Made by a program: the position numbers and the translations under genes. A stretch of 64,000 nt of DNA from an uncultured Mycobacteriaceae bacterium. GTDB taxonomy: Bacteria; Actinomycetota; Actinomycetes; Mycobacteriales; Mycobacteriaceae. Under the pieces are notes generated by a model, which saw nothing but the letters and a program-made list of their open reading frames with translations, was not told the DNA's origin and searched no databases. Shown one piece after another: positions 8,519 to 64,000 of the stretch (within the stretch, counting starts at the first letter, position 1; each line of letters begins with the position of its first letter). The stretch covers positions 36,640 to 100,639 of the forward strand of contig CADEGF010000001.1 of NCBI GenBank assembly GCA_902826815.1, given 5' to 3'.

Positions 8519-8806
8519 CTATCCCCACTTGGCGCCTTCGGACTGGTCCCTGGCGTTCATCGACATGGTGTTCTGCTCGTGGGTGGACGCCATTGCGCGG
8601 TACGCACGCACCAGCTCCTCGAGTGCGGTATTCCACTGCGCCTGCCAGGCCTGGTAGGTCATCCCGGTGTCGCCCTGCCACGCGCCTGCCAGCGCGGCCT
8701 GCTCGCTCGCGACGTCCGCGCCGACCGCGTGCAGAGCGGCTGAGTAGCTTGACATTTCGCCCGAGTGCGCCAGCATCGCCGGGTAGTTGTACATGATCTG
8801 CGACAT
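8519..8806 (-). CDS. esxH: ESX-3 WXG100 secreted protein EsxH (TB10.4-like)
   Basis: A 95-residue WXG100 protein starting [14 protein letters not shown], as in TB10.4/EsxH, with the turn motif WQG near residues 43-45 between two helices. EsxH forms a tight heterodimer with EsxG that is secreted through ESX-3 and takes part in iron and zinc acquisition; in pathogens it also targets host ESCRT. There is no signal peptide, as expected for type VII substrates. esxG lies immediately upstream (24-base gap) and the two are surely co-translated. Confidence 0.96.
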
Positions 8807-8830
8807 GGTCGTTGGCCTTTCCGATCTAAC

Positions 8831-9124
8831 TCAGATAGAGGTGTAGGTGCTTGCCGCTGCCGCATCCTGTGCGACGTAGTTGCCCGCGGCGTCGCCGAGG
8901 TTGACCTGCGCGATGTCGAGCAGCGCGTTGACCTTCGCCGACACCTCGACGAACCGGGCGTGTGCGGCCTGGAACGCCGCCGACGACTCGCCCATGTGGA
9001 AGGCCTGCGCGGACGTGGCGGCCTGTTCGGCCTGTGCGATGGTGCTGCGCATCAGCGCGGTCTTCGCACCGAAGGCCGCCTCGGATGCGACCAGTTGGGG
9101 AATATGAGCATCGAGGAGGCTCAT
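8831..9124 (-). CDS. esxG: ESX-3 secreted protein EsxG
   Basis: A 97-residue partner of EsxH, starting [19 protein letters not shown]. The turn between the helices reads HMG instead of WxG, as is usual for EsxG. The C-terminal tail contains YVAQD, which fits the type VII secretion signal YxxxD/E carried by one partner of each dimer. The start ATG overlaps the PPE4 stop by four bases. Confidence 0.96.
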
Positions 9125-10680: not shown

Positions 10681-10682
10681 CG

Positions 10683-10991
10683 TCAGCCGCGCGCGATCAG
10701 ATACGAGGCGGCGGCCGCGGCGTCTCCGGTGACGTAGCTCGCCGCCGATTCACCGACCCCGGCGCCGGACCGGCCCAACTCCTCGACGCCTTGTGCCGCG
10801 ACGGTCGAATGCTGCGCGCCGTACGCGCTCATGCCCACAGCCGTCTGCAGCGACACCGGGTCCGCCGCGGCAGGTATCACCGCCGTGACGAGAGGCGCCG
10901 CCCCCGCATGAGCCGCCGCCAGCCGGGCCGTCAACGCCTCGACGGCCGCGCTGGCCGCCGTCAACCCCTCTGGTATCACTCGTAGAGTCAC
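10683..10991 (-). CDS. PE5: PE5, ESX-3-associated PE protein
   Basis: A 102-residue PE protein, identical in length to M. tuberculosis PE5. It is a compact PE domain with no PGRS extension. The PE dipeptide occurs in IPEGL near residue 7, and the C-terminal YVTGD fits the type VII secretion signal YxxxD/E. The start ATG overlaps the eccC3 stop by four bases and PPE4 follows two bases after its stop, so the PE-PPE pair is co-translated. Confidence 0.95.
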
Positions 10992-13900
10992 CGACCGTAG
11001 TCCTTTCTCTCGCCGTTGGAATGTGCCACCGCGTCCTCACCGAGCGGATTCACGAGCTGCAAATATATCGGTGCGTCGCTGTCCCCCAACAGGATTCCTC
11101 TGCCCACAGGAAGCCTGCTGAAGCGCTGACCGCGGATCTTGCCGCTGTCTTGCGGATTGCCCGAGAGCATCAGCGTGGTTGCCTGCAGCTCGTTGAGCCT
11201 GCGCAACAGCGGCGCGGTCATCACGGCGTGTGCCGACCCGGCGGCCCGCGCCGTGACGATCACCCGCAGTCCCAGATCGCCGGCCTCGGAGAGCAGACCG
11301 ATGAGGCTCGACCACGGACGCTGCCCGACGTAGGGGCCACCCATCGCCGGCGAGTCAGGGATCTGGTCGACATCGTCGACGATCAGATAGTGCGTCTGCC
11401 CCTGGAAGGTCCAGCCGCTCAGCTGCTCTCGGCTCAGCCCTGCGGGCGGCCTGCGCTTCTCGATGATCGACGACAGGCCGAGCATGGCCGGGGTGATCCG
11501 GTCGATGTTGGGGGTGTACTCGTTGTCACCGAACAGCGGCTCGTCGACCAGGTGCAGCCTGCGGTCGATGACGGTGAACGCGACCTGGTCGGCGGTCGCG
11601 TTGTCCCGAATGGTGCGGATGAGGTGCCGCAGCAGGGTCGTCTTGCCGGATCGGTTGTCGCCGAACACCATCAGCAGCGGGTTCTGCGCGAAGTCCAGCG
11701 TGACCGGTGCGAGGTCCTCCTCCCGCTGACCGACGACGATCCTTTCGCGGCCCTGGTACAGCGGGGCGACCGCCTCTGGGCGCAGCTCCGTGGGAAGCAG
11801 TCGCACCGGCGGCGCCGACAAACCCCGGTACCGCGAGTTGAGCTCGCCGATCGCCGTCAGCGGCGGAGTGGCGAACAGGAAGTGCTCGGCGGCCATGGTC
11901 AGGCCACGGCCCGGCTGATCGGCTGGCACGCTCTCCGCGGGTCGCCGCAGGGCGCCGACGACGCGGACATTGCTGTCGTGCGCGTCGTGCAGCTTGAGCT
12001 CGAGCCGCAGCCCGAGACCGTCGCGCATCGCCAGCGGCACCTCGATCCAGTTCGGGGTGGTGACGACGACGTGAATGCCGTAGGAGAGGCCCGCGTTGAC
12101 CAACTCGGACACTTTGGCCAGCAACGGGTTCCTGGTGTTGAACTGATCGGTGTTGTCCCTGCTGAACGCGTACAGGTTGTCGATGACGAGGAAGACCTCG
12201 CCGTAGCCGTCATCGCGGTCGGTGGCCCCGCGGCGCTGGCGTGCGAGCAGCAGCTGTTCCAACTCGCCGAATGTCCGCCTGATCCGTTCGGGCTCGAGCG
12301 GCGATGCCACACTGCCGACGTGCGCGACGTCGGTGAGCTTGGCCAACTGGCCGCCGCCGTAGTCCAGGCAGTAGAAGGTGACGTCGCGAGGCGAATGCAG
12401 CGCTGCCGCCGACAGAATGAAGGTCTGCAGTGCTGTCGACTTGCCGGACTTCGGTCCCCCGTGGATCACCATGTTGCCCGCCGACGAGGTGGCGTCGAAG
12501 ACCAGCGGGTCGCGCCGCATCTCGAAGGGCCTGTCGATTTCGCCTAGCGGCCAACGCCATTGACGGTCGGGAAGGTCCGCGCGGTGTAGCACCTCTTCAA
12601 GGGGCAGCGGCTCGTCGAGCGGCGGCAGCCAGAGCTGCGGCGCCCGCGGCCCGTAGTTGGCCAGCTGGTCGCCGACGGTGGCGATCAGCTTGCGCGGCGG
12701 CAGCTCCTCGATGGCGGTGTCGGCGTCGGTGATCGCCGTCTCTGCCGGCGGCTCCACCCGCGATGCGGTGAACAGCTGGGGACGGGGCACCGCATGCACG
12801 ACGATCGATTTCGCGCGGCGGGGCGGTTCGTAGATGCCGTCGACGTAGGTGCTGCGGAACTTGACCGGTACCGCACCGGGAGCGGGCACCAGGAACCCGA
12901 TGCCCTTGTGTCCGCGGCCCGACTCGATGTGATATGCGTCCTCGACACCGATGATCTGGCGAGAGATGCTGGGACTGGCCACCTTCAGGCCGATGCGGTA
13001 CGACGTGTTCTTGTCGATGTCCTTGATCTTGCCGACATCGAGCGTCTGCGATGCGAACAGGATGTGGATCCGGAACGAGCGGCCCTTGCGGGCGACGTAG
13101 TCGAAGAGCTCCGCGTACTCTGGATGGTCTGCCAGCATCAGCGTGAACTCGTCGGCCACCACGAACAGGGTGGGCATCGGCGGCAGGTCATGTCCGGCCG
13201 CGATAGCGTTCTCGTACTCCGTGACCGAGTTGAACGCGCTGCCCTGTACCCGGCGGCCCGCCTCACGGAGCAGCTGTTCACGACGGGCCACCTCACCGCG
13301 CAAGGTGTCGGCGAACCTGTCGGCAAGCGACTTCTTCTCTGCCATGTTGGAGATGACGGCGACCACCTGCGGGAAGTTGCGGAAGATGTCGGCGCCCGCC
13401 TCGCCCTTGAAGTCGGCGTAGATGACGATGAGTCGGTCGGCGGAGTGAGTCGTCAACAGCGACAACAGGATCGACATCAGTGTCTGGGACTTACCGGAGC
13501 CCGTCATGCCGATCATCAGGCCGTGCGGCCCCATCCCGCCCTCGGCCTCGTCCTTGAGGTCGAAGTAGAGCGGCTCGCCGGTGGCGGTGACACCGATCGG
13601 CACCCTCAGCTCGTCATCGCGGTTGCGCGGCGCCCACAGGGTCGCGATGTCAAGGGCCGACGCGTCGGGGATGCCGAGCAGCGTGGTGAACGTGCCGCCG
13701 CCGGTGCTCGACGAGCGGGTGTGGATCGGGTTGGAATCCCAGCGCGAGAGGCGGCGCGCGATGTGTGCCATATCGGCGACGGCGAGCGTGTCGGCGGCGC
13801 CGATATACGGTTGCCAGCCACCCGCGCCCTGCCAGCGCTGGACCCTTCCGTCACCGATGCGGAGCACGGGTCTTTCGGGGTCCGGATACTGTTCGCGGTG

Positions 13901-14914
13901 CGGCTCTTTCGACGACGTGTGAATCACCGTGACGCCGGAGAGCTGAGGCAGATCGGAGAAGTCGTCGGGATCGGTAGTATTGTCGTCGGGGTCGTCGAGC
14001 ACGATCAGCATGTGCTTGGCGGCATCGAGGCCCGCGAGGAGCTGCCGCAGAGTCCCCTGCGTGGTCGATAAGAGCCTGGCCGGGCCAACTCCATCGGCCT
14101 GACCTGGAACATCGGTGTGCGGCAACCATTTCAGCCAGGTCCAGGCTTCGCTATCCAGATCCGGTGTCGCGACCGCAAGGCCCAGGACCTCGGGATCGTG
14201 CCACGTCACCGCCTGCGCGATCCACGCCCGCAACGCGCCGCTCACCGCGTCGGGCTCACCGGACAGCGTCACCCGTGACAGCTTCGTCAGCTCGATGCCT
14301 GCGGGCGCATCGCGCACTGTGCGCTGGGTGTCCAGCAAGCCGCGAAGTGCGCTGTGCGACACCGGCTCCAGATCGATCTCGTCGGCGCTGTCCTTGACCC
14401 GCAAGGTGGTGTTCAGCGGTGCGTCGTTGAGCCCGGCGCGCAGCACCAGGAAGTCGTCGTCGCGCGGGTCTCGCTCCCACTGCCGACGGGTTCCCGGGAT
14501 GACAGCGAGTGCGTCGGGGGTCGGATGCGACCACTCCAGTGCCGCGCGCTGCTCGCCTGCATGCGCGCGCACGTTGTCCCTCAACACCGACAGGTAGCGC
14601 AGATAGTCGGCGCGTTCGGCGTCGACCTCCTCGGTGCGCATCTTGTTGTCGGAGCCTCGGTACAGCGCGGTGGCCGCCAACAGCAGCACGAACGGGAAGA
14701 ACAGCGTCGTCGGCGAGATGAGGCGCATACCGGTGGCGACGAGCGCCACGATCATGCCGACGATGAGGATCACGATCAGATAGGGCAGCACGCGCCGCAA
14801 CAGCGACGGCGGAATCAGACGCGGCAGTTCGGGTGGCGGCTCGATCGTGATGGTGCCCCTGCGAACCTCGGGGCGCGGCATCCGGCGGTGCGCCTCGAAT
14901 ATCAGCCTGCTCAT
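10988..14914 (-). CDS. eccC3: ESX-3 FtsK/SpoIIIE-type ATPase EccC3
   Basis: Motor ATPase of ESX-3, a single chain of 1308 residues (M. tuberculosis about 1330). Two N-terminal membrane helices (about 42-62 and 66-84) lead to a DUF domain and three FtsK-like ATPase domains. Walker A lysines are Lys475 in GMTGSGKS, Lys825 in GGPKSGKS and Lys1091 in GDNRSGKT. EccC recognises the C-terminal signal of Esx substrates and drives export. Unlike EccCa1/EccCb1 of ESX-1 the protein is not split. Both ends overlap neighbouring genes by four bases. Confidence 0.97.
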
Positions 14915-47477: not shown

Positions 47478-48657
47478 GTCGACTGCTCTCCTTCGTAGGT
47501 ATGCCACCAGTCACCACAGCGTCGATGATCGGTACTCCTGGCCGGTAGGCGAGGTGGATGTAGGAGGGCGCGTCCAGCGTGACGAAGTCCGCGCGCATGC
47601 CCGGCGCGAGGACGCCAACGTCGTCGCGCCGCAGGGCGGCCGCTCCGCCCGCGGTGGCGGCCCTCAACGCCTCCGCGGGCGTCAGGTGCATATCGCGTAC
47701 GGCAAGCGCGATGCAGAACGGCATGCTGGTCGTGTACGACGTACCGGGGTTGCAGTCCGTCGCGAGGGCGATCGCCACGCCTGCCGCCACGAACCGTCTT
47801 CCGTCCGGCCACGGTGCGCGGGTGGAGAATTCGGCGCCGGGAAGCAGGGTGGCGACGGTGGTGCTCGATGCCAACGCCTCGAGGTCGCTGTCCTCGGCGA
47901 ACGTGCAGTGGTCGACCGACGCCGCGCCCAACTCGACTGCGAGCTTGATTCCCTGACCGGCAGCGAGTTGGGAGGCGTGCATGCGCAGGCCGAGGCCGGC
48001 ATCCGCGCCGGCTTGCAGGATCGTCGCGGCCTCGTCCACGTCGAACGCACCGCGGTCGCAGAACACATCGATCCACCTGGCCTTCGGCGCGCAGGCCGCG
48101 AGCATCTCACCGGCCACCAGCCTGACGTAGTCGTCCCGACGGTCCCGGTATTCGGCGGGCACGACGTGCGCGCCGAGGAATGTCGTCTCGTCGGTGACGC
48201 GGCCCGCGATCTCCAGCGCTCGTCGTTCGTCGGCAACGGTCAGGCCGTAGCCACTCTTGGTCTCGAACGTCGTGACACCGCCACGCGACAGCTCGCCCGC
48301 CAACCTGGCGAGGTTGTCCGACAGTTCGCCATCGTCTGCCGCACGGGTCGCCGATACCGTTGTCGCGATGCCGCCGCCGTCGTACGGCGTTCCGCTCATT
48401 CGCGCGGCGAACTCGGCGGATCGGTCGCCCGCGAAGATCAGATGCGCGTGGCTGTCCACGAATCCCGGTATCACGCTTGCCTTTCGACAGTCCACCCGGT
48501 TCTCGGCGGCGGGGGCGCGGCCGGTCGGGCCGACCCAGGCGATGCGGTCACCGTCGACGACCATCGCCGCTCCTTCGACGATGCCGAGGGGCGACCCGTC
48601 ACCCTGAGACGGGTCGTTGGTCACCAGCTCGCCGATGTTGTCGTACAGAACGGTCAT
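47470..48657 (-). CDS. hutI: Imidazolonepropionase
   Basis: Third step of the hut pathway: imidazolone-5-propionate to N-formimino-L-glutamate. The 395-residue amidohydrolase-fold enzyme has metal ligands His70 and His72 in [12 protein letters not shown], a later His in [12 protein letters not shown] and Asp in [20 protein letters not shown] is the substrate-binding segment typical of HutI. The start ATG overlaps the hutF stop by four bases. Confidence 0.95.
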
Positions 48658-49997
48658 CGGCACACCTCGATGGCCTCTGCGAGGGCTTTCCCGATATCGG
48701 GCACGCAGACGTGTCGCCCCTCGCTCACCACGCGCCTTCCGTCGATGATCACGTCGGTCACATCGGCCGCCGACGCCGCGAACACCACGTTCTCCACCGT
48801 GGCACCACCTCCTGCCGTCCGCATCGACCGGGTGTCGACGGCCACCAGGTCGGCGGGAGCGCCGACCCGAAGCGCGCCTGCCTCGGCCCAGCCGAGGGCC
48901 TGCTGCCCGGCGCTGGTCGCCGCATCGAGTAAGGTTGTCGCAGAGATGATCCCGCGTTCGCGGCGGGCCAGCCGCTCGTCGAGTTCGACGGCGCGAGCCT
49001 CCTCGAACAGGTCGATCACCGCGTGGCTGTCGGAGCCGAGGCTGAAGAGTCCCCGACCGGCCAGCAGCGCACTCGCCGGGCCGATTCCGTCGCCGAGATC
49101 GCGCTCGGTGGTCGGGCAGAAGCAGGTGCCCGTCGCCGTCTGGTTCATGTCGGCGATGTCCTGATCGGACAGGTGCGTTGCGTGCACCGCCGTAGTGCGT
49201 GGGCCGAGGACGCCGTTGTCGCGCAGCAGCGCGGTCGGAGTGCGGCCGTGCACCGCGAGGCATTCGTCGACCTCCGCCGTCTGTTCTGAGGAGTGCACGT
49301 GAAGGGGCGCGTCGTGGGCGTCGGCCCACTCGACGACCGCGGCCATTTCCGACGGCGGCACAGCGCGCACGGAATGTATTGCGGCACCGACGATCACGCC
49401 TGCATCGGGCGCGACGTCGGACCTCAGCTGGTCGACCCGGTCGGCCCACTGCGTTGCCGTGCCGTCGCCGAACCGCTGCTGCGGTCCCTTAGCCAGTGGC
49501 GCGCCGTCGATGCCGGCGCGCAGATAGCAGGTGTCCAGCAGGGTCAGGCGCAACCCGGCGTCCGAGGCCGCGGCGATCAGCGCCTTGCCCATCTCGTTGG
49601 GATCCGCATAGGGGCGCCCACCCGCGTCGTGGTGCAGGTAATGGAATTCACCGACCGCGGTGATTCCGGCAAGCGCCATCTCGGCGTACACGGCCGTCGC
49701 GAGCACGCGATAGGAATCAGGAGTCAGTCGTCCTGCGGCCTCGTACATCAGCTTTCGCCAGGTCCAGAAGCTGCCGCGATCCCGCTGCGTCCTCGCCCGC
49801 AGGGCGCGGTGGAAGGCATGCGAGTGAGCGTTCGCCAGTCCCGGGATGACCAGGCCGCCAAGCAGTTCTGACGAATCCGACGGTCGCGCGCCGGTCTCGA
49901 TCGCGGTGATCCGTCCGTCGGCGACGTTGACCAGAACCGAGTCCGAGACGTCGCCGTCCAGCCATGCGTGTTCACACCAGAAGGCCCCGGCGCTCAT
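48654..49997 (-). CDS. hutF: Formimidoylglutamate deiminase
   Basis: A 447-residue amidohydrolase-fold enzyme converting N-formimino-L-glutamate to N-formyl-L-glutamate and ammonia, which marks the five-step hut route. Metal ligands are His58 and His60 in [12 protein letters not shown], a later His in LHVHSSEQ and Asp in SLGSDSHA. It overlaps hutI downstream and the AllC-like gene upstream, each by four bases. Confidence 0.92.
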
Positions 49998-51238
49998 GAC
50001 GACACCCAGTCGGCCATCACGTCTGCCAGCGCCTCGGCGCCGGTGCTGCAGTCGGAGATCTCGGCGTACTCGTCGGGTGAATGTGAGACGCCGGTGGGAT
50101 TGCGCACGAACAGCATCGCCGTCGGCACCTTCGCCGACAGGATTCCGGCATCGTGGCCCGCGGCGGTCGGCAGCACCGGCACGTCGCCGAAGCGCGACAG
50201 CGCCGTCTGCAGTCTCCGGCGTGGCGCGTCGGGGAACGCGACGATCGGCGTGATCGACTCGGCCTCGAAGTCCAACGTGACGTGGCCGTCCCTGGCGTAT
50301 TGTGCGGCCGCGTCCCGGATAGCGTCGACGACGGTCGTCAAGGTCGCCTCGTCGGCTGCGCGTGCGTCCAGCCATGCATCGACGCGGGACGGGATGGCGT
50401 TCGCACCGTTCGGGGTGACCCTGACCTTGCCGAATGTCGCAACGCTGTCGTGACGCGCGGCCTCGATGCGCGCCGCGTGCACCGCAGAAGCGAACGGCAA
50501 CATGGGATCCCGGCGGTCGATGAGCCTAGTGGTTCCCGCGTGGTTGGCTTCACCGCCGAAGGTGAGGTGCCATCTGCCGTGCGGCCAGATCGACGACGCG
50601 ACGGCCACCGGCTGACCCAGATCGACAAGCGCCCTGCCCTGCTCGACATGTAGCTCGACGTAGACGCCGACGCGATCGGCCAGCGTGTCGTCGGCGCCGA
50701 GGTGCTCGGGCCGACGGCCCGCGTCCCGCAGCGCATCGGCGAGCGTGATGCCGTCGTTGTCGCGCAACCGCAGCGCGCGTTCGGGCCTCAGCGCACCGGT
50801 GCTCAGCTGTGATCCGACGCAGGCGACGCCGAACCGCGCGCCCTCTTCATCGGCGAAGGCGACGACGGCGATCGGGACGACTGGATCGACACCGCGCGCG
50901 CGCAGAAGATCCACCGCGTGAAATGCCGAGACCACGCCGAGGGGACCGTCGAAGGCCCCGCCGTCGGGAACGGAGTCCAGATGCGATCCGGTGACGAACG
51001 CGCCCTTCGGGTCTCCGCTCCACCCGGTGGGCATCCACCAGGCCCAGGTATTGCCGTTACGGTCCTCTTCTACGCTCATGCCGCGGCGCTCGGCTTCGCC
51101 AGTGAACCAGTCCCGCAGTGTCAGATCGGCTGTGTTCCAGGCGAATCGGCGGTAGCCACCGGTGGAGGGTTCGCGACCGACGTCGAGAATCGACTCCCAC
51201 AGAGAATTGAATCCAGCGTCGAATTCCTTCGGTTCCAT
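49994..51238 (-). CDS. AllC-like M20-family amidohydrolase in the hutG position
   Basis: A 414-residue zinc amidohydrolase of the allantoate amidohydrolase / N-carbamoyl-amino-acid hydrolase family. Metal ligands are visible in TGSHLDSVPDGGAFDG (His, Asp), FADEEGARFG (Glu) and LHVEQG (His). No allantoin genes are nearby; it sits between hutU and hutF. The pathway needs an N-formylglutamate deformylase (HutG) after HutF, and none is present, so this enzyme is the natural candidate to release formate and glutamate. The start at 51238 leaves two bases to the hutU stop. Confidence 0.8.
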   Translation of the reverse strand: MEPKEFDAGFNSLWESILDVGREPSTGGYRRFAWNTADLTLRDWFTGEAERRGMSVEEDRNGNTWAWWMPTGWSGDPKGAFVTGSHLDSVPDGGAFDGPLGVVSAFHAVDLLRARGVDPVVPIAVVAFADEEGARFGVACVGSQLSTGALRPERALRLRDNDGITLADALRDAGRRPEHLGADDTLADRVGVYVELHVEQGRALVDLGQPVAVASSIWPHGRWHLTFGGEANHAGTTRLIDRRDPMLPFASAVHAARIEAARHDSVATFGKVRVTPNGANAIPSRVDAWLDARAADEATLTTVVDAIRDAAAQYARDGHVTLDFEAESITPIVAFPDAPRRRLQTALSRFGDVPVLPTAAGHDAGILSAKVPTAMLFVRNPTGVSHSPDEYAEISDCSTGAEALADVMADWVSS

Positions 51239-51240
51239 TT

Positions 51241-52929
51241 TCACTGCTCTTGCATGGGGATACGGACGCCGCGCTCGGCGGCCACCGCGGTGGCGTGCTC
51301 GTAGCCCGCGTCGGCGTGGCGGATGACGCCCATGCCGGGGTCGTTGGTCAGCACCCGTTCGAGCTTCTGCGCCGCGAGCTCCGTCCCGTCGGCCACACAC
51401 ACCTGGCCCGCGTGGATCGAGCGGCCCATTCCGACGCCGCCGCCGTGATGGATCGACACCCACGATGCTCCCGACGCCGTGTTCACCAAGGCGTTCAACA
51501 GCGGCCAGTCCGCGATGGCGTCGGAGCCGTCGGCCATGGCCTCGGTCTCCCGGTAGGGCGACGCGACCGAGCCCGAGTCGAGGTGGTCGCGGCCGATGAC
51601 GATCGGGGCCGACAGCTCACCGGATGCCACCATCTCGTTGAATTTCAGCCCGGCCCTGTGCCGTTCGCCGTAGCCGAGCCAGCAGATCCGGGCAGGCAGG
51701 CCCTGGTACGCGACCCGCTCCTCGGCCATGGTGATCCAGCGGCGAAGATGGTCGTTATCTCCGAACAGCTCGAGGATTGCGCGGTCCGTTGCCTCGATGT
51801 CTTTCGGGTCACCGGAGAGCGCCGCCCATCGGAACGGCCCGAGCCCCTCCTCGAACTGGGGTCGGATGTAGGCGGGAACGAAACCGGGGAAGTCGAAGGC
51901 CCTGTCATAGCCGGCCTTTCGCGCCTCGTCGCGAATCGAGTTGCCGTAGTCGAACACCTCGGCGCCCTTGTCCATGAAGCCGACCATCGCGGCCACATGC
52001 TTGGCCATCGATTCCCGCGACTGCTCGGTGAAGTACGCCGGGTCCTTGTCCGCCATCTTCTTCATGTCCTCGAACAGCACACCGGTCGGCAGGTAGGACA
52101 GCGGATCGTGCGCGGATGTCTGGTCGGTGACGATATCGATGGGCGCGTCGCGCTCGAGCAGCTCGGGAAAGACCTCCGCCGCGTTGCCGACGAGGCCGAT
52201 GGACAGCGGTCGCTTGGCGTCTCGCGCCTCGATCGCCAGCGCGAGGGCCTCGTCGATGCTGCTCGCCTTGGTGTCGAGATAGCGGTGCTCGATCCGCCGG
52301 TCGATGCGGCTCTCATCGCAGTCCACGCAGATCGCCACCCCGTCGTTCATGGTGACCGCGAGCGGCTGCGCACCGCCCATGCCGCCGACGCCTGCAGTGA
52401 GAGTGATTGTCCCGGCAAGGGTTCCGTCACTGTGCTCATAGCGGCCAGAGGCCGCGAACTTCTTGGCGACGGCGCCGAACGTCTCATACGTGCCCTGCAG
52501 GATTCCCTGGGTGCCGATGTAGATCCACGAGCCCGCGGTCATCTGGCCGTACATGGTCAGGCCCGCCGCCTCCAGCTCGCGGAACTTCTCCCAGTTCGCC
52601 CAGTCGCCGACGAGGTTGGAGTTGGCGATCAACACGCGAGGCGACCAGACATGCGTCCGGAATACCCCAACCGGCTTGCCGGACTGGACCAGTAGCGTCT
52701 CGTCGTCCTCGAGCCCCTGCAGCGTCGAGACGATCGCGTCGAAGGCCGGCCAGCTGCGCGCGGCCCGCCCGGTGCCGCCGTAGACCACGAGATCCTCGGG
52801 GTGCTCGGCAACCTCTGGATCGAGGTTGTTCATCAGCATGCGCAGCGCCGCTTCCTGCTGCCAGCCCTTGCAAGAGAGAGTGGTCCCGCGCGGAGAGCGG
52901 ACGATGCGCGGTTCAGTCGTCGAAGTCAT
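51241..52929 (-). CDS. hutU: Urocanate hydratase
   Basis: Second step of histidine degradation: urocanate to imidazolonepropionate, with tightly bound NAD+ as electrophile. The 562-residue product has the family signature [16 protein letters not shown], which contains the active-site region Cys, and an NAD-binding stretch [14 protein letters not shown]. It is the first gene of the operon, divergent from the IclR regulator; the 90-base gap carries an AGTCTCG-N4-CGAGACT repeat. Confidence 0.96.
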
Positions 52930-52983
52930 GGGTTCAGCACACCCGATCACCAGTCGGCACAACCAGACCCTTGGACCGAGTAT

Positions 52984-55817: not shown

Positions 55818-56746
55818 TGGCAGCGGGAGTGCTGATACCGCCCGACCGCGGCTCGAACAACCTCGTCGACGATGCGCTGGAGAAAGCACGCGCCGCCGTG
55901 GACGCCGGGGTGCGCGAGCTGTGGTTGGGTCAGCAGTTCGATTACGACGCAATAACGTTGGCTGCGGTGCTCGGTACCGCGTTACCGGGTGTCGGAGTGG
56001 GCACATCGGTTGTTCCCGTCAACCCTCGCCACCCGCTCGTGGTTGCGTCGGCGGCGCAGACTGCGCAGGCGGCAACCCACGGGAACTTCCGGCTCGGGCT
56101 GGGTCTCGGCGTGGCATTCGCCGAGGAACTCACCTACGGGTTGTCGACGGCACGCCCGGTGGCGCGGCTACGTGAATACCTGACGGTGCTGCGCTCGATC
56201 CGCGACGAGCGCACCGTCGACTTTCACGGCGCGGAGCTCACCGCCGTCGACCCGAAGGTGTTGCCGGTCGCACTCACCGGCGCGGCACCGTTTCCCATCT
56301 ACGTCGCGGCGATGGGACCCCAGATGCTTCGGGTGGCAGGCGAACTCGCCGACGGCACGCTGCCTGCAGGCACGGGTCCGCGCACGATCGAGAGCGTCAT
56401 CGTGCCGACGATCGCCGCCGCAGCCGCCGACTCGGGCCGCCCACAGCCGCACGTGATTCCGTGCGTCAGCGTGGCGATCACCGATGACCCCGACGCCGTG
56501 CGAGCCGCGGCCGCACCGGGTATGGCTGTCTACGATTCGAACCCGTCGAATCAGAAGCAGTACGCGCGGGAGGGCGTCTCGTCAGGCATCGAACTTGCCC
56601 TCATCGGGTCCGCCGATTGGGTCACCCGGTCGCTACGCACCTACCTCGACGCCGGCGCGACGGATCTGGTGCTGCTACCTCTGCAAACTGGCGCCGACGA
56701 TCTTCGGCGTGTCTACGACGTCGCCACTGCGCTGGACACCGACTGA
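55817..56746 (+). CDS. LLM-class F420-dependent oxidoreductase
   Basis: A 309-residue luciferase-like TIM-barrel oxidoreductase of a mycobacterial F420-dependent group. Recognisable segments are RELWLGQQFDYDAIT, GTSVVPVNPRHPLVVA, FRLGLGLGV and PIYVAAMGPQMLRVAGELADG. Such enzymes transfer hydride between F420 and varied small molecules. It is coupled to the epimerase gene. The end overlaps the convergent aldehyde dehydrogenase by 34 bases. Confidence 0.85.
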   Translation: MAAGVLIPPDRGSNNLVDDALEKARAAVDAGVRELWLGQQFDYDAITLAAVLGTALPGVGVGTSVVPVNPRHPLVVASAAQTAQAATHGNFRLGLGLGVAFAEELTYGLSTARPVARLREYLTVLRSIRDERTVDFHGAELTAVDPKVLPVALTGAAPFPIYVAAMGPQMLRVAGELADGTLPAGTGPRTIESVIVPTIAAAAADSGRPQPHVIPCVSVAITDDPDAVRAAAAPGMAVYDSNPSNQKQYAREGVSSGIELALIGSADWVTRSLRTYLDAGATDLVLLPLQTGADDLRRVYDVATALDTD

Positions 56747-58167
56747 CTGACCAGGTAGCTCTCCAACCCTTCGCGTCCGAGCTCACGGCCGTACCCGCTC
56801 TGCTTGACGCCGCCGAACGGCGCGGCGGGATCCATGATGTAGCCCTGGTTGACACCGAACGTTCCCGACCGGACCCGGGCCGCGGTACCGAACCCGCGAT
56901 CGATATCGGCGGTGAAAACCGAACCGGCCAAACCATATTCGGAGTCATTCGCGATGCGCACCGCATCGTCTTCGGTGTCGTAGGGGATGACAGTGAGCAC
57001 CGGGCCGAAGATCTCCTCGCGCGCGATCCGCATATCGTTGGTGGCATTGCTGAACAGGGTCGGGCTGACGTACCAGCCGGCGTCCAGCCCGTCCGGCATC
57101 TCGGTGCCGCCGACGACGAGCCGCGCGCCCTCGCGTTCGCCTTCCTCGATGTAGCCGCGTACCCGTGTCTGCTGACGTTCGGCCACCAGCGGACCCAGCT
57201 GGATCTCGGGATCGCTCGGGTCACCCACTGACATCCCCTGCATGCCTGCGGCGAGCGCGTCGACGAACTCGTCCTGTCGGTTGGCGGGCACCAGGATTCG
57301 GCTCAGCGCATTGCACACCTGACCGCTGTTGGCCAGGCTCGCCGCCTGGATCGCCTGCGCGACGAGGGCGGGATCGGCGTCGTCGAGAACGATGGCCGCC
57401 GACTTTCCGCCCAGCTCCAGGCTGACCTGCTTCAACCCCTCGGCGCACGCGATCGCGACCTGGCGCCCCGCCGCGGTCGACCCGGTGAACGAAACCTTGT
57501 CGACACCAGGATGTTTGACGAGGGCCTCGCCGACCTCGCGGTCGCCGGGCACCACGTTGAAGACACCCGGGGGCAGACCGGCCTGCTCCACCAGGTCGGC
57601 AAGGAACTGTGCGTCGAGGACCGACTCTGGCGAGGGCTTCAGCACGACACAGCAGCCGGCCAGCAGTGCGGGCACGACCTTGCACACCGTCAGGAACTGC
57701 GGCATGTTCCACGGCACCACGGCCGCCACCACACCGACAGGCCGCTTGTTGACGCGAATATCGTTGCCGTACAGGCCCGGGCGAACCTCGTTCCAGTCGT
57801 ACTTCGCGGCGAGGTCACCGAACGCGGCGAACATCATCAGCGGTATCCGTACCTGCGCGCGTTTAGCGAACGAGATGGGTGCGCCGATCTCCGCGGTGAT
57901 CAGCTCAGCCATCGCGTTTCGGTTGTCTTTGTACAGGTCCGCCAGCCTGCTCAGCGCTTCGATGCGCGCGGACGGCTGCATGCGCGGCCATGGCCCGTCG
58001 TCGAATGCCGTCCTTGCCGCGCGGACCGCCCTGTCCACATCCGCGGGACCGGCCATGGCCACGGAGCCGATCGGCTTCTGGCTGTGCGGCGAGATCACGT
58101 CGATCGCGCTACCGGCCTGCGGCGCCGACCACTGTCCGTCGATGAAGAGCTTGTCGCGGTTGTACAT
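56713..58167 (-). CDS. NAD(P)-dependent aldehyde dehydrogenase
   Basis: A 484-residue aldehyde dehydrogenase. Catalytic Cys285 lies in NSGQVCNAL, general base Glu251 in LELGGKS, oxyanion Asn154 in VPWNMP, and the cofactor glycine in FTGST. It oxidises an aldehyde to an acid. The start ATG at 58167 was chosen because family homology begins there. It follows the remains of an SDR gene by 16 bases, an alcohol-aldehyde-acid pairing in intact form. The upstream palindrome at 58485-58498 probably controls it. Confidence 0.9.
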   Translation of the reverse strand: MYNRDKLFIDGQWSAPQAGSAIDVISPHSQKPIGSVAMAGPADVDRAVRAARTAFDDGPWPRMQPSARIEALSRLADLYKDNRNAMAELITAEIGAPISFAKRAQVRIPLMMFAAFGDLAAKYDWNEVRPGLYGNDIRVNKRPVGVVAAVVPWNMPQFLTVCKVVPALLAGCCVVLKPSPESVLDAQFLADLVEQAGLPPGVFNVVPGDREVGEALVKHPGVDKVSFTGSTAAGRQVAIACAEGLKQVSLELGGKSAAIVLDDADPALVAQAIQAASLANSGQVCNALSRILVPANRQDEFVDALAAGMQGMSVGDPSDPEIQLGPLVAERQQTRVRGYIEEGEREGARLVVGGTEMPDGLDAGWYVSPTLFSNATNDMRIAREEIFGPVLTVIPYDTEDDAVRIANDSEYGLAGSVFTADIDRGFGTAARVRSGTFGVNQGYIMDPAAPFGGVKQSGYGRELGREGLESYLVSQSVSSAVATS

Positions 58168-58183: not shown

Positions 58184-58470
58184 TTAGGTTCTTCTGCCGC
58201 CGTTGACGCCGAGGATCGCGATGTATCCCACTTGGGCCATATTCCAGCGCAAGCGATTTGGTGAGCCCGTTGACCGCGGACTTCGCGGCTACATACGCCG
58301 TCATGAACTGCTGGCCCGAGTGTGTGCTTGACGAGGAGATGTTCACGATCCGTCCCCAGCCGTTGTCCACCATGTCCGGCAGCACCGCACCGATGGTGTG
58401 AAACACTCCGTTGAGGTTGACGTCGACGACCCTTGACCCCACCTGTCACCAAAGCGGTCCTCATGGGCAC
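58184..58470 (-). pseudogene. Short-chain dehydrogenase remnant with two internal deletions
   Basis: Three pieces of one SDR (FabG-like) remain in order. The N-terminus MRTALVTGG starts near 58464. A middle block VVDVNLNGVFHT through WGRIVNISSSST, AYVAAKSAVNGL and KSLALEYGP is in another frame (up to about 58430). A C-terminus YIAILGVNGGRRT with stop TAA at 58184-58186 is in a third. A normal SDR of about 250 residues would have some 80-90 residues between the first two pieces and about 80 between the last two. The catalytic Ser and YxxxK survive; the cofactor loop and substrate region are gone. It is certainly non-functional as an SDR. Confidence 0.85.
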
Positions 58471-58531: not shown

Positions 58532-59494
58532 ATGAGCAGACCGTTCCGGTTCGCCGTCCAGGCGACCAACGCATCGGATGCCCGACAATGGCGTGATACC
58601 GCGCGTAAGACCCAGGATCTCGGCTACTCCACACTCTTCCTCGCCGATCACTACCTCGGCCCTGGGCCCGCGCAACGCGCCGCCCGCACCCCGAGACAGG
58701 ACCTCGCCCCGATCGCGGCGATGGCCACGGCCGCGGCGGTCACCGAGACACTGCGTGTCGGATGTCGAGTTTTCTGCATCGACTATCACGTGCCCGCGGT
58801 GCTCGCGAAGGAGGCCGCCACCCTTGACCTGCTGTCAGACGGCCGTCTCGAACTCGGGATCGGAGCGGGATGGAGCGGGGGCGAATACGAAGCGATGGGC
58901 CTGACATTCGATCGTCCCGGTCGCAGAATCGCCAAGCTGGAGGAAGTGATTGCGCTGATCAAGGCGCATTGGCGCGGCGAAGAACTGGACGTGCGCGGCG
59001 ACTTCGTCCGTGTCAGGGGCTACGCGGGCCGACCACGCCCTGTGCAGCAACCCCACCCGCCGATCATGATCGGCGGGGGCAGCCAACGGGTGCTCACCCT
59101 GGCAGGCCGGGAAGCCGACATCGTCAGCATCTCGAATGTCCCGTTCGAGGCGAGCAACGACGCGGGCCTCGACCCACGGGCCGAGGCGCTTCGCCGAACC
59201 GGGTATGTGCGCGCCGCCGCGGCGGATCGATTCGACGACCTCGACATCGAGAGCTCGCCGTATTTCGCCGAGATCACCGGCGACCCCGGCGCCGCGCTGG
59301 ACAACCTCGCCTCGAAAACCGGTATCGCCGTTGAGATCCTGCGGGATCATCCGAACGTGCTGATCGGCACCACCGATGGGGTGGTCGACGTGCTGCACGA
59401 GCGCCGCGATGAGCTGGGCATCAACTACGTCTCCGTCCAGCAGCGCCAGCTCGAAGCGTTCGCGCCTGTTGTCTCCCGGCTGCGCGGGTTGTAG
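58532..59494 (+). CDS. LLM-class F420-dependent oxidoreductase
   Basis: A 320-residue luciferase-like oxidoreductase (TIGR03621-like). Typical segments: FRFAVQATNASDARQWRDTA, LGYSTLFLADHYLGPGP, LELGIGAGWSGGEYEAMGL and PIMIGGGSQRVLTLAGREAD. It probably uses F420 or FMN. It starts the plus-strand catabolic gene group directly downstream of the palindrome, although a second palindrome follows it, so it may be a separate transcript from the hydrolase operon. Confidence 0.85.
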   Translation: MSRPFRFAVQATNASDARQWRDTARKTQDLGYSTLFLADHYLGPGPAQRAARTPRQDLAPIAAMATAAAVTETLRVGCRVFCIDYHVPAVLAKEAATLDLLSDGRLELGIGAGWSGGEYEAMGLTFDRPGRRIAKLEEVIALIKAHWRGEELDVRGDFVRVRGYAGRPRPVQQPHPPIMIGGGSQRVLTLAGREADIVSISNVPFEASNDAGLDPRAEALRRTGYVRAAAADRFDDLDIESSPYFAEITGDPGAALDNLASKTGIAVEILRDHPNVLIGTTDGVVDVLHERRDELGINYVSVQQRQLEAFAPVVSRLRGL

Positions 59495-59535: not shown

Positions 59536-60420
59536 ATGGCAAAGCGGACACGGTTCACCGAGTACCAGAATCAGTACGCGAACTACCGGTTCGAACTCAC
59601 CGACGACGGCATCCTTTTCATGCAGTGCCACACCGACGGCGACAGCCTGGTCTGGAGCTGGCAGGCGCACGACGAGATGGCCGACGCCTTCGCCGACATC
59701 GCGGGCGACCGCGAGATCAAGGTGCTGATCCACACCGGCACCGGCGAGAACTACAACGCCAACTGGGGTCGGCTGCCAACCGGAGAACCGCCCGAACAAC
59801 CCATATACCAGGCGATGCCCGACATCCGTGGGTTGCACAAGCTCGACGAGAAGGCCTGGTATGCAAGGCATCTCATCTTCAACGTGCTCGACGTGGACGT
59901 CCCGATGATCAGCGCGGTCAACGGGCCATGCAATATGCACTCCGAGGTACCGGTCATGGGCGATATCGTGCTGGCCTCCGAGGACGCCTACTTCCAGGAC
60001 GCGTCACACTTTCCGCGCGGGCAGGTGCCCGGCGACGGACAGCACGTGATCTGGAGTGTGCTGGCCGGGCACAACCGCGCGCGCTACTTCCTGCTGACGG
60101 GCCAGAAGGTCAGCGCCAAAGAGGCCAAGGAGTGGGGCGTCGTCAACGAGGTGCTGCCGAAGGACCAACTGCTGGACCGGGCCTGGGAGCATGCCCGCGA
60201 ACTGGTCAAGCGCCCTCCGTTGACGCTGCGCTACACGCGACAGCTCTTCACCAACCCGCTCAAGCGCGCGTTCATCAACGAGCTGGGCCACGGGCTCGGT
60301 CGCGAGACGTATGCGCAGCGGGCGTTTTTCCCGTTCGGCGGCGAGATGGCACCGCTCGACCGGGCATGGGACCAGCAGCCCTGGTCCGAAAGCCACACAG
60401 GCGAAGGAGCGCAGCAGTGA
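59536..60420 (+). CDS. 6-oxocamphor hydrolase-like beta-diketone (retro-Claisen) hydrolase
   Basis: A 294-residue crotonase-fold enzyme. It resembles 6-oxocamphor hydrolase (CamK, Rhodococcus) more than enoyl-CoA hydratases: VPVMGDIVLASEDAYFQD, HFPRGQVPGDG and RARYFLLTGQKV. Its catalytic positions align: His158 and Asp167 (nine apart, as His145 and Asp154 in OCH), His135 (His122), and Trp40 and His45. OCH hydrolyses the C-C bond of cyclic beta-diketones without CoA. The next gene encodes a Rieske oxygenase, overlapping by four bases (GTGA). The substrate is presumably a cyclic 1,3-diketone made upstream. Confidence 0.82.
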   Translation: MAKRTRFTEYQNQYANYRFELTDDGILFMQCHTDGDSLVWSWQAHDEMADAFADIAGDREIKVLIHTGTGENYNANWGRLPTGEPPEQPIYQAMPDIRGLHKLDEKAWYARHLIFNVLDVDVPMISAVNGPCNMHSEVPVMGDIVLASEDAYFQDASHFPRGQVPGDGQHVIWSVLAGHNRARYFLLTGQKVSAKEAKEWGVVNEVLPKDQLLDRAWEHARELVKRPPLTLRYTRQLFTNPLKRAFINELGHGLGRETYAQRAFFPFGGEMAPLDRAWDQQPWSESHTGEGAQQ

Positions 60421-61718
60421 CCAGCATTCAGCAGAAGCTCGCCACGGGGCGCGGCAAGTTCACCCCTGACTACCCCGATCTTGGCACCGGCCCGGTCAAC
60501 TACGAGGACTCGATCTCCGAGGAGTTCTTCGCCGCGGAGCGAAAGGCGGTGTTCGAGCGCAGCTGGCTGTGCGTCGGCCGGATGGACCGCCTGCCGCGCA
60601 AGGGCTCCTACTTCACCAGGGAGCTGCCGGGCAGGCTCGCCTCGATCGTGATCACCCGCGACCTCGACGACAACGTCTACGCCTTCCACAACATCTGCGC
60701 ACACCGCGGCAACAAGGTGGTCTGGCAGGAGCACCCGGCAGAGGAGTCCGCAGGCAGCTGCCGCGCATTCTCCTGCAAGTACCACGGCTGGCGCTACGGG
60801 CTCAACGGTGTGGTCAACCACATCACCAACGAGGAGGAGTTCTTCGACCTCGACAAGAGCAAGCTGCGCATGCCGCCGGTGAGCTGCGAAGTGTGGGCGG
60901 GCTTTATCTTCGTCAACCTCGCCGAGGATGCCGAACCGCTGCGGGCCTTCCTCGGTGAGGGACTGCTTGGCATGGAGACCTACCCGTTCCACCTGATGAC
61001 GCAGCACTATGGGTTTTCCACGCAGATCAAGGGCAACTGGAAACTGGCGGTCGACTCGGTCTGCGAGTGGTACCACCCGCCCTACGTGCACGGCCGGTTC
61101 ATCGATCCGGACGTGTCCAAGGCCGAGAAGATGGTGCCGCCGGTCGACGCCTACCACTACGACCTGTTCGAGCCGCACATGCTGACCTCGGTGCCAGGGC
61201 CGCCGATCCTGCCGCCGCGCGAACCGGGCAGGGCCGGCGAGGCAAGGCAGGACCAGCGGTGGGTGTACAAGCTGTTTCGCGCCGGCCTGTTCGGACCGGA
61301 CGATGTGCCCGATATCGGTCCGCTGCCAAGCTTTCTCAACCGCGGCGAGATCGCATCGTGGGGTAATGATCAGTTCTGGGTCTTCCCCAACATTTCGATC
61401 CAGATCTGGGCGCGCAACTACTACATCACCTACACGTACTGGCCGCAGACCGTCGACACCCATATCTATGAGATCGACCTGTACTTCGTGCCGCCCGCCA
61501 ACGCTCACGAGCGGCTGGCGCAGGAGGTGGTGGTGGACAGCACCATCGAATTCGCGATGCAGGACGTCAACACGATCGAGGCCACCCATTCGGCGCTGAA
61601 GACCCGCGCGCAGAACACCTTCCACCTCAGCGACCAGGAGCTGCTCATCCGGCAGTTCCACCATGTGATCCGCGATACCGTGGCGGCTCACCAGTCGGGT
61701 GAGGAGCAGTCGTCATGA
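60417..61718 (+). CDS. Rieske non-haem iron oxygenase, alpha subunit
   Basis: A 433-residue ring-hydroxylating oxygenase-type protein. The Rieske cluster ligands are Cys94/His96 in CAHRGNK and Cys120/His123 in CKYHGW. The mononuclear iron site has His220 and His225 (YHPPYVHG) preceded by Asp213 and Glu217, with a late Asp in MQDVNTIEAT. It activates O2 for hydroxylation or demethylation. No ferredoxin or reductase gene is in the visible operon. The start is GTG at 60417, overlapping the hydrolase stop. Confidence 0.9.
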   Translation: MTSIQQKLATGRGKFTPDYPDLGTGPVNYEDSISEEFFAAERKAVFERSWLCVGRMDRLPRKGSYFTRELPGRLASIVITRDLDDNVYAFHNICAHRGNKVVWQEHPAEESAGSCRAFSCKYHGWRYGLNGVVNHITNEEEFFDLDKSKLRMPPVSCEVWAGFIFVNLAEDAEPLRAFLGEGLLGMETYPFHLMTQHYGFSTQIKGNWKLAVDSVCEWYHPPYVHGRFIDPDVSKAEKMVPPVDAYHYDLFEPHMLTSVPGPPILPPREPGRAGEARQDQRWVYKLFRAGLFGPDDVPDIGPLPSFLNRGEIASWGNDQFWVFPNISIQIWARNYYITYTYWPQTVDTHIYEIDLYFVPPANAHERLAQEVVVDSTIEFAMQDVNTIEATHSALKTRAQNTFHLSDQELLIRQFHHVIRDTVAAHQSGEEQSS

Positions 61719-62050
61719 CCGAGCGTCAACTGCCGGAAGGCTTCTCCGAGCTCGAGCGGTGGGTCGACGACTGGGCGCTTGCTACCAGGGCACAGCGCTA
61801 TGCCGCACGGTTGGACCGGCCGTATCCCGAACTGGTGGCGTTCTACGACGGCATCGCGCCGCACGCCGAACGTGCCATCGCCCATCTGGACGGCCTGGAC
61901 ATCGACAACCTCACTCCGGATGCCACTCGGCTGATGCATCTCCTCTACTCGATGATCCTGGTGTCGTACGCGGTGAACATCTTCAAGCAGAACCGCATCC
62001 CGGACTCGGGTGCCGCGTTCTTCGAGATGGTCGTCGAACCGGCACTGTGA
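61715..62050 (+). CDS. Small protein of unknown function in the Rieske operon
   Basis: A 111-residue, mostly helical, soluble protein (MTERQLPEGFSELERWVDDW; later RLMHLLYSMILVSYAVNIF). No family recognised. It overlaps the Rieske gene and the CoA-transferase gene by four bases each, so it is fully embedded in the operon and likely needed there, for example as a small oxygenase subunit or chaperone. It lacks Cys/His motifs for a ferredoxin. Confidence 0.65.
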   Translation: MTERQLPEGFSELERWVDDWALATRAQRYAARLDRPYPELVAFYDGIAPHAERAIAHLDGLDIDNLTPDATRLMHLLYSMILVSYAVNIFKQNRIPDSGAAFFEMVVEPAL

Positions 62051-63243
62051 ACACACTCCCGCTGGCAGGACTCCGCGTGGTGGACGCCGCGACGCTCGCG
62101 GCGGGTCCGCTGGTGGCGACCGCCCTCGCCGAGTTCGACGCGGAGGTGATCAAGGTCGAGCAGCCGCTCACCGGTGACCCGCTTCGCACCTGGGGGCCGC
62201 GTCGCGACGGCGTCGGCCTGGTCTGGAAGAGCGTGAGCCGCAACAAGAAATGCATCACGCTCGATATGCGCACCACAGAGGGGCAGGGTCTGCTGCACCG
62301 GCTCCTCGCAGTCAGCGACGTGTTCGTCGTCAACACCCGATTGAGCACGCTGGCCCGATGGCAGCTGGACTACGAATCGGTTCACGAACGGCATCCGCGG
62401 TTGGTGATGCTGCATGTCACCGGATACGGACACGGCGGCCCCGCTTCCGACCGCCCGGGATTCGGCACGCTCGCCGAGGCGATGAGTGGGTTCGCCGCCG
62501 TCACCGGTGAACCGGACGGCCCGCCGACGCTTCCGCCGTTCATGCTGGCCGACGGCGTTGCGGCGCTGGCCGCCACATACGCGGTCATGATGGCGCTCTA
62601 CCACCGCGACACACGCGGTGCGGACGGTCAACTCGTGGATGTCAGCCTCGTCGAACCGCTTGCGCGGCTGGTGGAACAGGCCACGCTCGCCTATGACCAG
62701 CTCGGTGTCGTCCAATCCCGCACCGGAAACAGGGTCGACGCAAGCGCGCCGCGGAACACCTACCGCACCACCGACGACAACTGGATCGCGGTTTCCAGCG
62801 CGGCATCCAGCACCGCACGAGCGGTCTACCGGGCAATCGAAAGACCCGACCTGGCAGCGCTTCCCGAATACGTCGACCCGGTACCGCGCCAGGCGCGCTC
62901 CGAGGAGATCGATGCACTGGTCGCCGAGTGGGTGGCCAGGCACTCGTTCGACGAGACCATGAAGGTGTTCCTCGCCGAGGGGGTGGCCGCCGCCCCGGTG
63001 TACGACGCGGGCGCGCTGCTCGCCGACGAACACTTCCGGGCGCGCGGCACATTCGTGGCCGTCGAGGACGAGCAACTCGGCAGCGTCACGGTACAGTCGC
63101 CGGTTGCAGTTCTCAGCGAAACACCGGGCGCCATCGATCATTTGGGACGCGAACTCGGCGCCGACAATGACGACGTGTACGGCGGTCTTCTTGGTTTCGA
63201 CGCGGGCGGTATCGACGCCCTGCGCGCGGCGGGGACGATATGA
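62047..63243 (+). CDS. CaiB/BaiF-type class III CoA-transferase
   Basis: A 398-residue family III CoA-transferase. The opening PLAGLRVVDAATLAAGPLVA is typical, and Asp169 in MLADGVAALAATYA falls on the catalytic Asp of formyl-CoA transferase. It would move CoA from a donor such as succinyl-CoA to the acid released by the retro-Claisen hydrolase. The start is GTG at 62047; the end overlaps the lyase gene by four bases (ATGA). Confidence 0.88.
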   Translation: MNTLPLAGLRVVDAATLAAGPLVATALAEFDAEVIKVEQPLTGDPLRTWGPRRDGVGLVWKSVSRNKKCITLDMRTTEGQGLLHRLLAVSDVFVVNTRLSTLARWQLDYESVHERHPRLVMLHVTGYGHGGPASDRPGFGTLAEAMSGFAAVTGEPDGPPTLPPFMLADGVAALAATYAVMMALYHRDTRGADGQLVDVSLVEPLARLVEQATLAYDQLGVVQSRTGNRVDASAPRNTYRTTDDNWIAVSSAASSTARAVYRAIERPDLAALPEYVDPVPRQARSEEIDALVAEWVARHSFDETMKVFLAEGVAAAPVYDAGALLADEHFRARGTFVAVEDEQLGSVTVQSPVAVLSETPGAIDHLGRELGADNDDVYGGLLGFDAGGIDALRAAGTI

Positions 63244-64000
63244 CCGGGCCGCGGCCGCGCCGATCCGAGCTGGCGACGCCCGCCAGCAGCGAGCACATGT
63301 GCGAGGTCGCCGCGCGGGCGGGCGCCGACCTCGTGTTCCTCGATCTGGAGGACGCGTGCGCACCGTCGGCGAAGGAGTCGGCGCGCAGCACGGCGGTGAA
63401 CGCGCTCACCGGCCTCGACTGGGGACGCACGCTGCGGGCTGTCCGCATCAATGGCCTCGAAACACCGTGGTGCCACGACGACCTCGTCGAGATCGTGAGC
63501 GGTGCAGGCAATGCACTGGACGTCATCATCGTCCCGAAGGTGCGGTCAGCGCGCGACGTGTGGTGGGTCGATGTCCTGCTCACCCAGCTCGAGACGAAAC
63601 TGGGGCGCAGGCGTCCGATCGCGCTGGAAGCGCTCATCGAAGAAGCCGAGGGGCTGGTGAACGTCGTCGAGATATCCCGGGCGAGCCCGCGGCTGGAGGC
63701 ACTGATCTTCGGCGCCGGCGATCTGTCGGCCTCGCTGCACGCCCGCGTCGACGGCAACTTCCAGCCCGCGGGCGACTATCCGGGCGATTACTGGCACCAC
63801 GTGCGCGTGGCTGTGCTTGCGGCTGCGCGCGCTGCGGGCATCGACGCGGTCGACGCGCCCTACCCCGGCTATCAGGATCTCGACGGCTACCGGCGCGCCG
63901 CGACGCACGCCAGTCTCCTTGGCTACGACGGTAAGTGGGCCATCCATCCCGCGCAGGTGCCGGTGGCCAACGAGGTGTTCACCCCGACGGCTGCGGAGAT
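63240..64000 (+). CDS. CitE-like HpcH/HpaI aldolase/lyase, cut by the window end
   Basis: The first 253 residues of a CitE-family TIM barrel (citrate lyase beta / malyl-CoA lyase-like). FLDLEDACAPSAKE near residue 34, AVRINGLETPW near 67, Mg-binding Glu130 in ALEALIEEAEG and Asp161 in FGAGDLSASL are all present. Near the end GYDGKWAIHPAQV is the usual late motif, so the protein is almost complete. It probably splits a hydroxyacyl-CoA into two acyl pieces, after the CoA-transferase step. Confidence 0.85.
   Translation, partial: MTGPRPRRSELATPASSEHMCEVAARAGADLVFLDLEDACAPSAKESARSTAVNALTGLDWGRTLRAVRINGLETPWCHDDLVEIVSGAGNALDVIIVPKVRSARDVWWVDVLLTQLETKLGRRRPIALEALIEEAEGLVNVVEISRASPRLEALIFGAGDLSASLHARVDGNFQPAGDYPGDYWHHVRVAVLAAARAAGIDAVDAPYPGYQDLDGYRRAATHASLLGYDGKWAIHPAQVPVANEVFTPTAAE

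Follow-up and report, generated by a model that had tools for sequence, protein, structure and literature searches.

What compound would be broken down by an operon that joins a Rieske oxygenase to a hydrolase of the 6-oxocamphor hydrolase (OCH) type? The question is raised by the end of the window, that is, the whole stretch of 64,000 nucleotides analysed here, which lies on contig C1 of the 6.87-Mb genome of an uncultured Mycobacteriaceae bacterium, a Mycobacterium to judge by its relatives. Genes for an OCH-like hydrolase, a Rieske protein, a 111-residue protein, a class III CoA-transferase and a CitE-like lyase follow one another there (Table 1), and an earlier note had taken the five for a single unit with overlaps of four bases. 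All four junctions, read from the sequence, are indeed 4-bp overlaps. The answer that we favor, with a probability of about 0.6, is that these genes form part of a catabolic operon, conserved among actinobacteria, whose substrate is alicyclic and probably terpenoid-like; a ring-shaped molecule of plant type would probably be opened by the OCH-like enzyme. Gene content, overlaps, conservation and the membership of the hydrolase in a clade with OCH and the Anabaena beta-diketone hydrolase (ABDH) were observed, and from them we infer every reaction.

In phmmer searches the hydrolase matched OCH (1o8u) at 2e-66 and ABDH (2j5g) at 2.2e-58, and the best hydratase-annotated chain at 1.4e-18. A quick 96-row tree, built without bootstrap and with several long branches flagged, groups it with OCH and ABDH in a clade of 81 rows (SH-aLRT 98), apart from the CoA-dependent hydratases; within that clade its own subclade numbers 46 rows (SH-aLRT 99). 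Six active-site residues (W40, H45, H135, H158, D167, and E257) are identical to those of 1o8u from Rhodococcus, and the AGGD-type CoA-site stretch of hydratases is replaced by ENYNANW; ABDH has the same H, H, D, E set, with F instead of W40. The H135 column is the one that we take to hold His122 in OCH. No curated hydratase family was matched, the best NCBIfam score being 98 bits against a cut-off of 354. A CoA-dependent enoyl-CoA hydratase was ruled out by the best matches, the tree, His135 and the missing AGGD-type stretch, and we conclude from its sequence that the hydrolase belongs to the OCH/ABDH clade, as the earlier note had predicted in advance of such an alignment.

The catalytic residues by themselves carry less weight than had been claimed for them. 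The set named in the earlier note (W40, H45, H135, H158, D167) is present in full, and E257 completes it. However, 1wz8 and two chains of EchA15 type, 3qk8 and 3q1t, also have H45, H158 and D167; in all three the H135 column holds G, and a GG stretch that the window hydrolase lacks is retained. Judged from the alignment, His135 is the residue that separates the window hydrolase from the hydratase-like chains compared, and the other three do not discriminate. In the excerpted text of PMC3584854, the ABDH residues are given as D153, H144, E243, and H43, and 3q1t, annotated as an enoyl-CoA hydratase, is argued to resemble ABDH; it shares several catalytic residues. With 3q1t already likened to ABDH there, His, Asp and Glu cannot settle the matter by themselves.

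The gene set recurs in other genomes, where the earlier note had suggested looking for it. One pattern-based scan of named genomes, a sample rather than a census, gave 61 loci, 42 of which hold a hydrolase at least 60% identical over 200 residues. They belong to Mycobacterium/Mycolicibacterium, Streptomyces, Prauserella, Amycolatopsis, Parafrankia, Rhodococcus, Nocardia, and Actinomadura, with three loci from metagenome-assembled genomes. Homologs at 55% identity or more were counted for an LLM-class oxidoreductase (37 loci), a short-chain dehydrogenase/reductase (SDR; 33) and an aldehyde dehydrogenase (ALDH; 21), along with the Rieske protein (35), the small protein (36), a P450 (20), a TetR-type regulator (19), the CitE-like lyase (17) and a mycofactocin-coupled SDR (12); the CoA-transferase was found in 19 loci at 35% or more and in 10 at 60% or more. 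These counts are lower bounds because contig ends cut several loci. Hydrolase, Rieske and small-protein genes occur together in 34 of the 42 loci, always on one strand and in one order. The hydrolase/Rieske junction is a 4-bp overlap in all 15 mycobacterial loci that hold the three; outside the mycobacteria it is a gap of about 75–155 bases or of CoA-transferase size, and a CoA-transferase-like gene (c11) fills it in seven loci.

As a control, 13 loci with hydrolases of 35–52% identity, chosen without L168 of M. alsense, were scored at the same cut-offs. LLM, Rieske, small-protein, CitE, SDR, ALDH, and P450 genes were each found in none of them and a CoA-transferase gene in one, a weak control because the loci come from distant phyla and some lie on short contigs. 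In a genus sample of 248 genomes, 71 have the hydrolase at 1e-20 or less, and 15, our own genome included, have it at full length with at least 83% identity. The corresponding numbers in a phylum sample of 396 genomes are seven at an E-value of 1e-35 or less and two above 80%, again with our own; one genome of this sample, G622, has two hydrolases of 51–52%. The distribution of the cluster among soil actinobacteria is patchy. In agreement with the earlier note, which knew of no described pathway with this set, none was found in the literature searched, which consisted of open-licence papers and left most subscription papers, those on OCH included, outside.

The Rieske protein has the CxH...CxxH motif at residues 94–123, H220/H225 and a QDVNTIE stretch from residue 382, which presumably supplies the iron-site carboxylate; by its sequence, both the Rieske cluster site and the 2-His-1-carboxylate iron site appear to be present. 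Its nearest solved and curated relatives are carnitine monooxygenase (CntA), a distant one at 7e-27, and glycine betaine monooxygenase (GbcA), whose curated family it fits with only about 97 bits, far below the cut-off of 670. It differs from both in that its gene is followed by that of the 111-residue protein. A gene for a SnoaL-type beta subunit was not found adjoining that of the alpha subunit, where the next gene is the one for the 111-residue protein, without such a Pfam match. This small protein has no match in Pfam, NCBIfam or PHROGs, nor in PDB by sequence, and AlphaFold, run with 33 sequences, predicts an all-helical fold (mean pLDDT 88.4). When 346 genomes of the phylum were searched with a profile, 23 matches turned up in eight of them, all 23 with a Rieske gene directly ahead. 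For 22 of them, in seven genomes, exactly 22 Rieske partners lie 0–103 bases upstream on the same strand, and the last, in G270, likewise stands behind a Rieske gene (45%). At most five Rieske candidates were scored per genome, which bounds the converse statement, that every Rieske protein of this type has a small partner, and leaves the direction from small protein to Rieske gene unaffected. Alignment A2 was made without L127, L128/L097, L129, and L099, in which the reading of the small protein is fused, shifted or a fragment. Our own genome has five such pairs (one in the window, one on C15, two on C26 and one on C68), with a TauD-type gene directly after two of them, at C26 and C68. A joint role with the Rieske oxygenase is most likely for the 111-residue protein, in the simplest reading as a dedicated partner or subunit, and its family deserves a study of its own.

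The unit is, at the same time, larger than the five genes first proposed. The LLM gene is likely to be the first gene of the operon, since an LLM homolog adjoins the hydrolase in 37 of the 42 loci and only 41 bp lie between its end and the start of the hydrolase gene here; the TetR-type gene also joins the unit, and relatives add SDR, ALDH, P450, mycofactocin-coupled SDR and TauD genes. None of the six reading frames, LLM through CitE, is interrupted, and each keeps its family motifs. The final 139 bases of the CitE-like gene run past the window end and were read from L009, in which a mycofactocin-type SDR gene lies on the opposite strand beyond the TetR-type open reading frame (ORF). This ORF extends into a lysine- and glycine-rich tail, which may reflect a fusion or an overlapping frame.

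Table 1. Genes of the operon and its flanks, with window coordinates unless L009 is named
Feature	Position	Strand	Basis
ALDH, divergent	56713..58167	-	ORF to 58470; homology 56728-58167; 76% identical over 482 residues to the flanking ALDH of orthologous operons
SDR remnant, between ALDH and LLM genes	58224..58436	-	71 of 250 residues; 83% identity to residues 106-176 only of the flanking SDR
LLM-class oxidoreductase, TIGR03621 (F420-dependent by family name)	58532..59494	+	NCBIfam TIGR03621, 273 bits against cut-off 213; Pfam Bac_luciferase
OCH-like hydrolase (6-oxocamphor hydrolase/beta-diketone hydrolase-like C-C hydrolase)	59536..60420	+	ATG; Pfam ECH_1; phmmer, tree, residues
Rieske non-haem iron oxygenase, alpha subunit	60417..61718	+	GTG; Pfam PF00355 (Rieske) and PF00848 (Ring_hydroxyl_A)
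111-residue helical protein, no family match	61715..62050	+	ATG; AlphaFold; always behind a Rieske gene in matches
Class III CoA-transferase	62047..63243	+	GTG; Pfam CoA_transf_3, 4e-105
CitE/malyl-CoA-lyase-like lyase	63240..64139	+	ATG; Pfam HpcH_HpaI, 4e-39
TetR-type regulator	L009:8575-9678		ORF reading; after the CitE-like gene

Neither of the last two enzymes of the unit is constant. PDB relatives of the CoA-transferase include formyl-CoA transferase and succinate-hydroxymethylglutarate CoA-transferase. Its neighbor has the HpcH_HpaI domain, which places it by sequence in the CitE/malyl-CoA lyase family, with malyl-CoA lyase 4l9y as the nearest solved relative (2e-71); both proteins stay below every curated NCBIfam cut-off. 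The closest known systems are the malyl-CoA/beta-methylmalyl-CoA lyases and RipC of the itaconate pathway with class III CoA-transferases, as in the window, where a gene for such a transferase adjoins that of the lyase. Both genes are present in the window, G145, G124, L117, L118, L119, and L121, and neither occurs in loci like those of M. triplex and M. colombiense; in some other loci the CoA-transferase is placed elsewhere or is a distant paralog. The two are dispensable in many genomes. The order of oxygenase, hydrolase, CoA-transferase and lyase, in which the earlier note saw chemical sense, must therefore be given up as a fixed design.

Mycobacterial operons are flanked by divergent SDR and ALDH genes, and 12 of the 16 loci examined have a P450 and 10 a mycofactocin-coupled SDR (TIGR03971). 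The camphor 6-hydroxylation route consists of a P450, an SDR and OCH. P450 and SDR genes stand near the hydrolase in many of the present loci; the window operon differs from the camphor route in joining an F420-type LLM enzyme, a Rieske protein with its small partner, a CoA-transferase and a CitE-like lyase. A P450 and a mycofactocin SDR near the hydrolase would be what a route through P450, dehydrogenase and diketone hydrolase wants. In Nocardia vinacea (L147) the P450 gene ends 23 bp ahead of the hydrolase gene, and its product has CYP150A6 as the best solved relative (2e-191); the related CYP150A5 converts beta-ionone to 4-hydroxy-beta-ionone, as stated in an excerpt of PMC6237146, and carveol dehydrogenase is listed among TIGR03971 SDRs in an excerpt of PMC5264612. 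In our own genome, genes for a mycofactocin SDR (75%) and a P450 (81%) form a pair right where contig C4 begins, on a contig separate from that of the window. Outside Mycobacterium, a TauD-family gene (c6; 11 of 30 loci) often stands behind the small protein. On a Rhodococcus plasmid, an OCH-like gene of 40% identity has P450, SDR and AMP-binding genes for company in a stretch of about 8 kb.

From these genes a pathway may be drawn up as follows. One or both oxygenases (the P450 and the Rieske enzyme, the latter with its small partner) would hydroxylate the ring, and the alcohol would be oxidised to a ketone by an SDR, mycofactocin-coupled in many relatives, to yield a cyclic 1,3-diketone. By adding water, the OCH-like enzyme would cut the ring in a retro-Claisen reaction and release a keto acid, which the F420-type LLM enzyme could then trim along with ALDH, SDRs and, in loci that have one, a TauD-type dioxygenase. 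Finally, a hydroxy- or dicarboxylic acid might receive CoA from the class III CoA-transferase, and the resulting CoA ester might be split by the CitE-like lyase into an acyl-CoA and an oxo-acid. A stronger version, in which the key step of an undescribed actinobacterial pathway is the cleavage, by a distinct OCH subclade, of a cyclic 1,3-diketone that is free rather than CoA-bound, and in which a new Rieske architecture has a dedicated small all-helical subunit, its gene always right behind that of alpha, in place of the usual beta subunit, is put forward tentatively, as we hold the odds of both parts being right to be somewhat below even.

Several observations weigh against the proposed catabolic operon. 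The fixed identity cut-offs of the 13-locus control are lenient toward it, and LLM and P450 relatives (both 31–32%) do occur near some of the 35–52% hydrolases. The 9-kb flanks lack a P450 in 22 and a mycofactocin SDR in 30 of the 42 loci, and many loci are without CoA-transferase and CitE. True OCH is only a cousin of the window hydrolase, which has an insert of its own near residues 78–105 besides its own subclade, and thus 6-oxocamphor need not be the substrate. In the window the partner SDR is reduced to residues 106–176 of 250, and an operon-type TauD was not found in our own genome, where the best candidates are 42–45% paralogs elsewhere; the pathway may therefore be incomplete here. From this last pair of findings it could be argued that the present operon is in decay, left over from a pathway that functions in other genomes. 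Relatives do show losses, of the CoA-transferase and CitE in loci of M. triplex or M. colombiense type and, in a piecewise loss seen among slow-growing mycobacteria, of most of the Rieske gene in L127 and L128, and of most of the stretch from hydrolase through CoA-transferase in L168, where a CitE tail is left beside TetR. Decay nevertheless seems unlikely to us, given that the unit has six open genes, LLM through CitE, with their family motifs and that SDRs and P450s elsewhere in the genome could substitute for what is missing.

A different chemistry would follow if the ring were carried as a thioester, as in a steroid-like pathway for alicyclic acids, with the OCH-like enzyme hydrolysing a cyclic beta-ketoacyl-CoA. 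The CoA-transferase and CitE-like lyase within the operon would suit it, as would the OCH-like gene (68–77%) directly after acyl-CoA dehydrogenase and enoyl-CoA hydratase genes in L148, L149, and L155, and the several catalytic residues shared by 3q1t. However, the hydrolase stands in the OCH/ABDH clade, has His135 and lacks the AGGD-type stretch, and the title of a paper cited in PMC3584854 calls ABDH CoA-independent; such a role is improbable on this evidence. Still less probable is that the unit makes, modifies or detoxifies a metabolite and does not serve growth on a carbon source. Tailoring would be compatible with the two or three oxygenases and the several SDRs, and no transporter was recognised in the cluster, but no polyketide, peptide or terpene synthase is among the annotated genes, which cover part of the neighborhoods, and the CoA-transferase with the CitE-like lyase, the ALDH and the regulators of PaaX type (L154) and TetR type all suit catabolism.

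If the proposed catabolic operon is real, it gives a first handle on a pathway conserved at 70–94% hydrolase identity across many actinobacterial genera, and it adds a natural pathway beyond that of camphor to the OCH family, whose members are useful for cleaving diketones stereoselectively. A large group of Rieske proteins in mycobacteria and their relatives would also have a partner protein missed by annotation. OCH-like hydrolases of about 50% are carried, moreover, by Chloroflexota contigs (L156–L167), one of them titled SAR202, and in two of these (L160 and L163) LLM and P450 genes lie close behind the hydrolase gene; the same question may thus be asked of the breakdown of alicyclic matter in the sea. 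One further locus, L134, is titled Rhodococcus sp. JCM 9791 and listed in the taxonomy under Cyanobacteriota, and is probably a mislabelled or mixed record. Elsewhere in the window, histidine-breakdown genes for urocanate hydratase (hutU) and formimidoylglutamate deiminase (hutF) occur with an allantoate-amidohydrolase-like gene at 48657–52962, and type VII secretion genes, for an EccC with EccCa and EccCb domains and a WXG100 protein, at 8519–14914.

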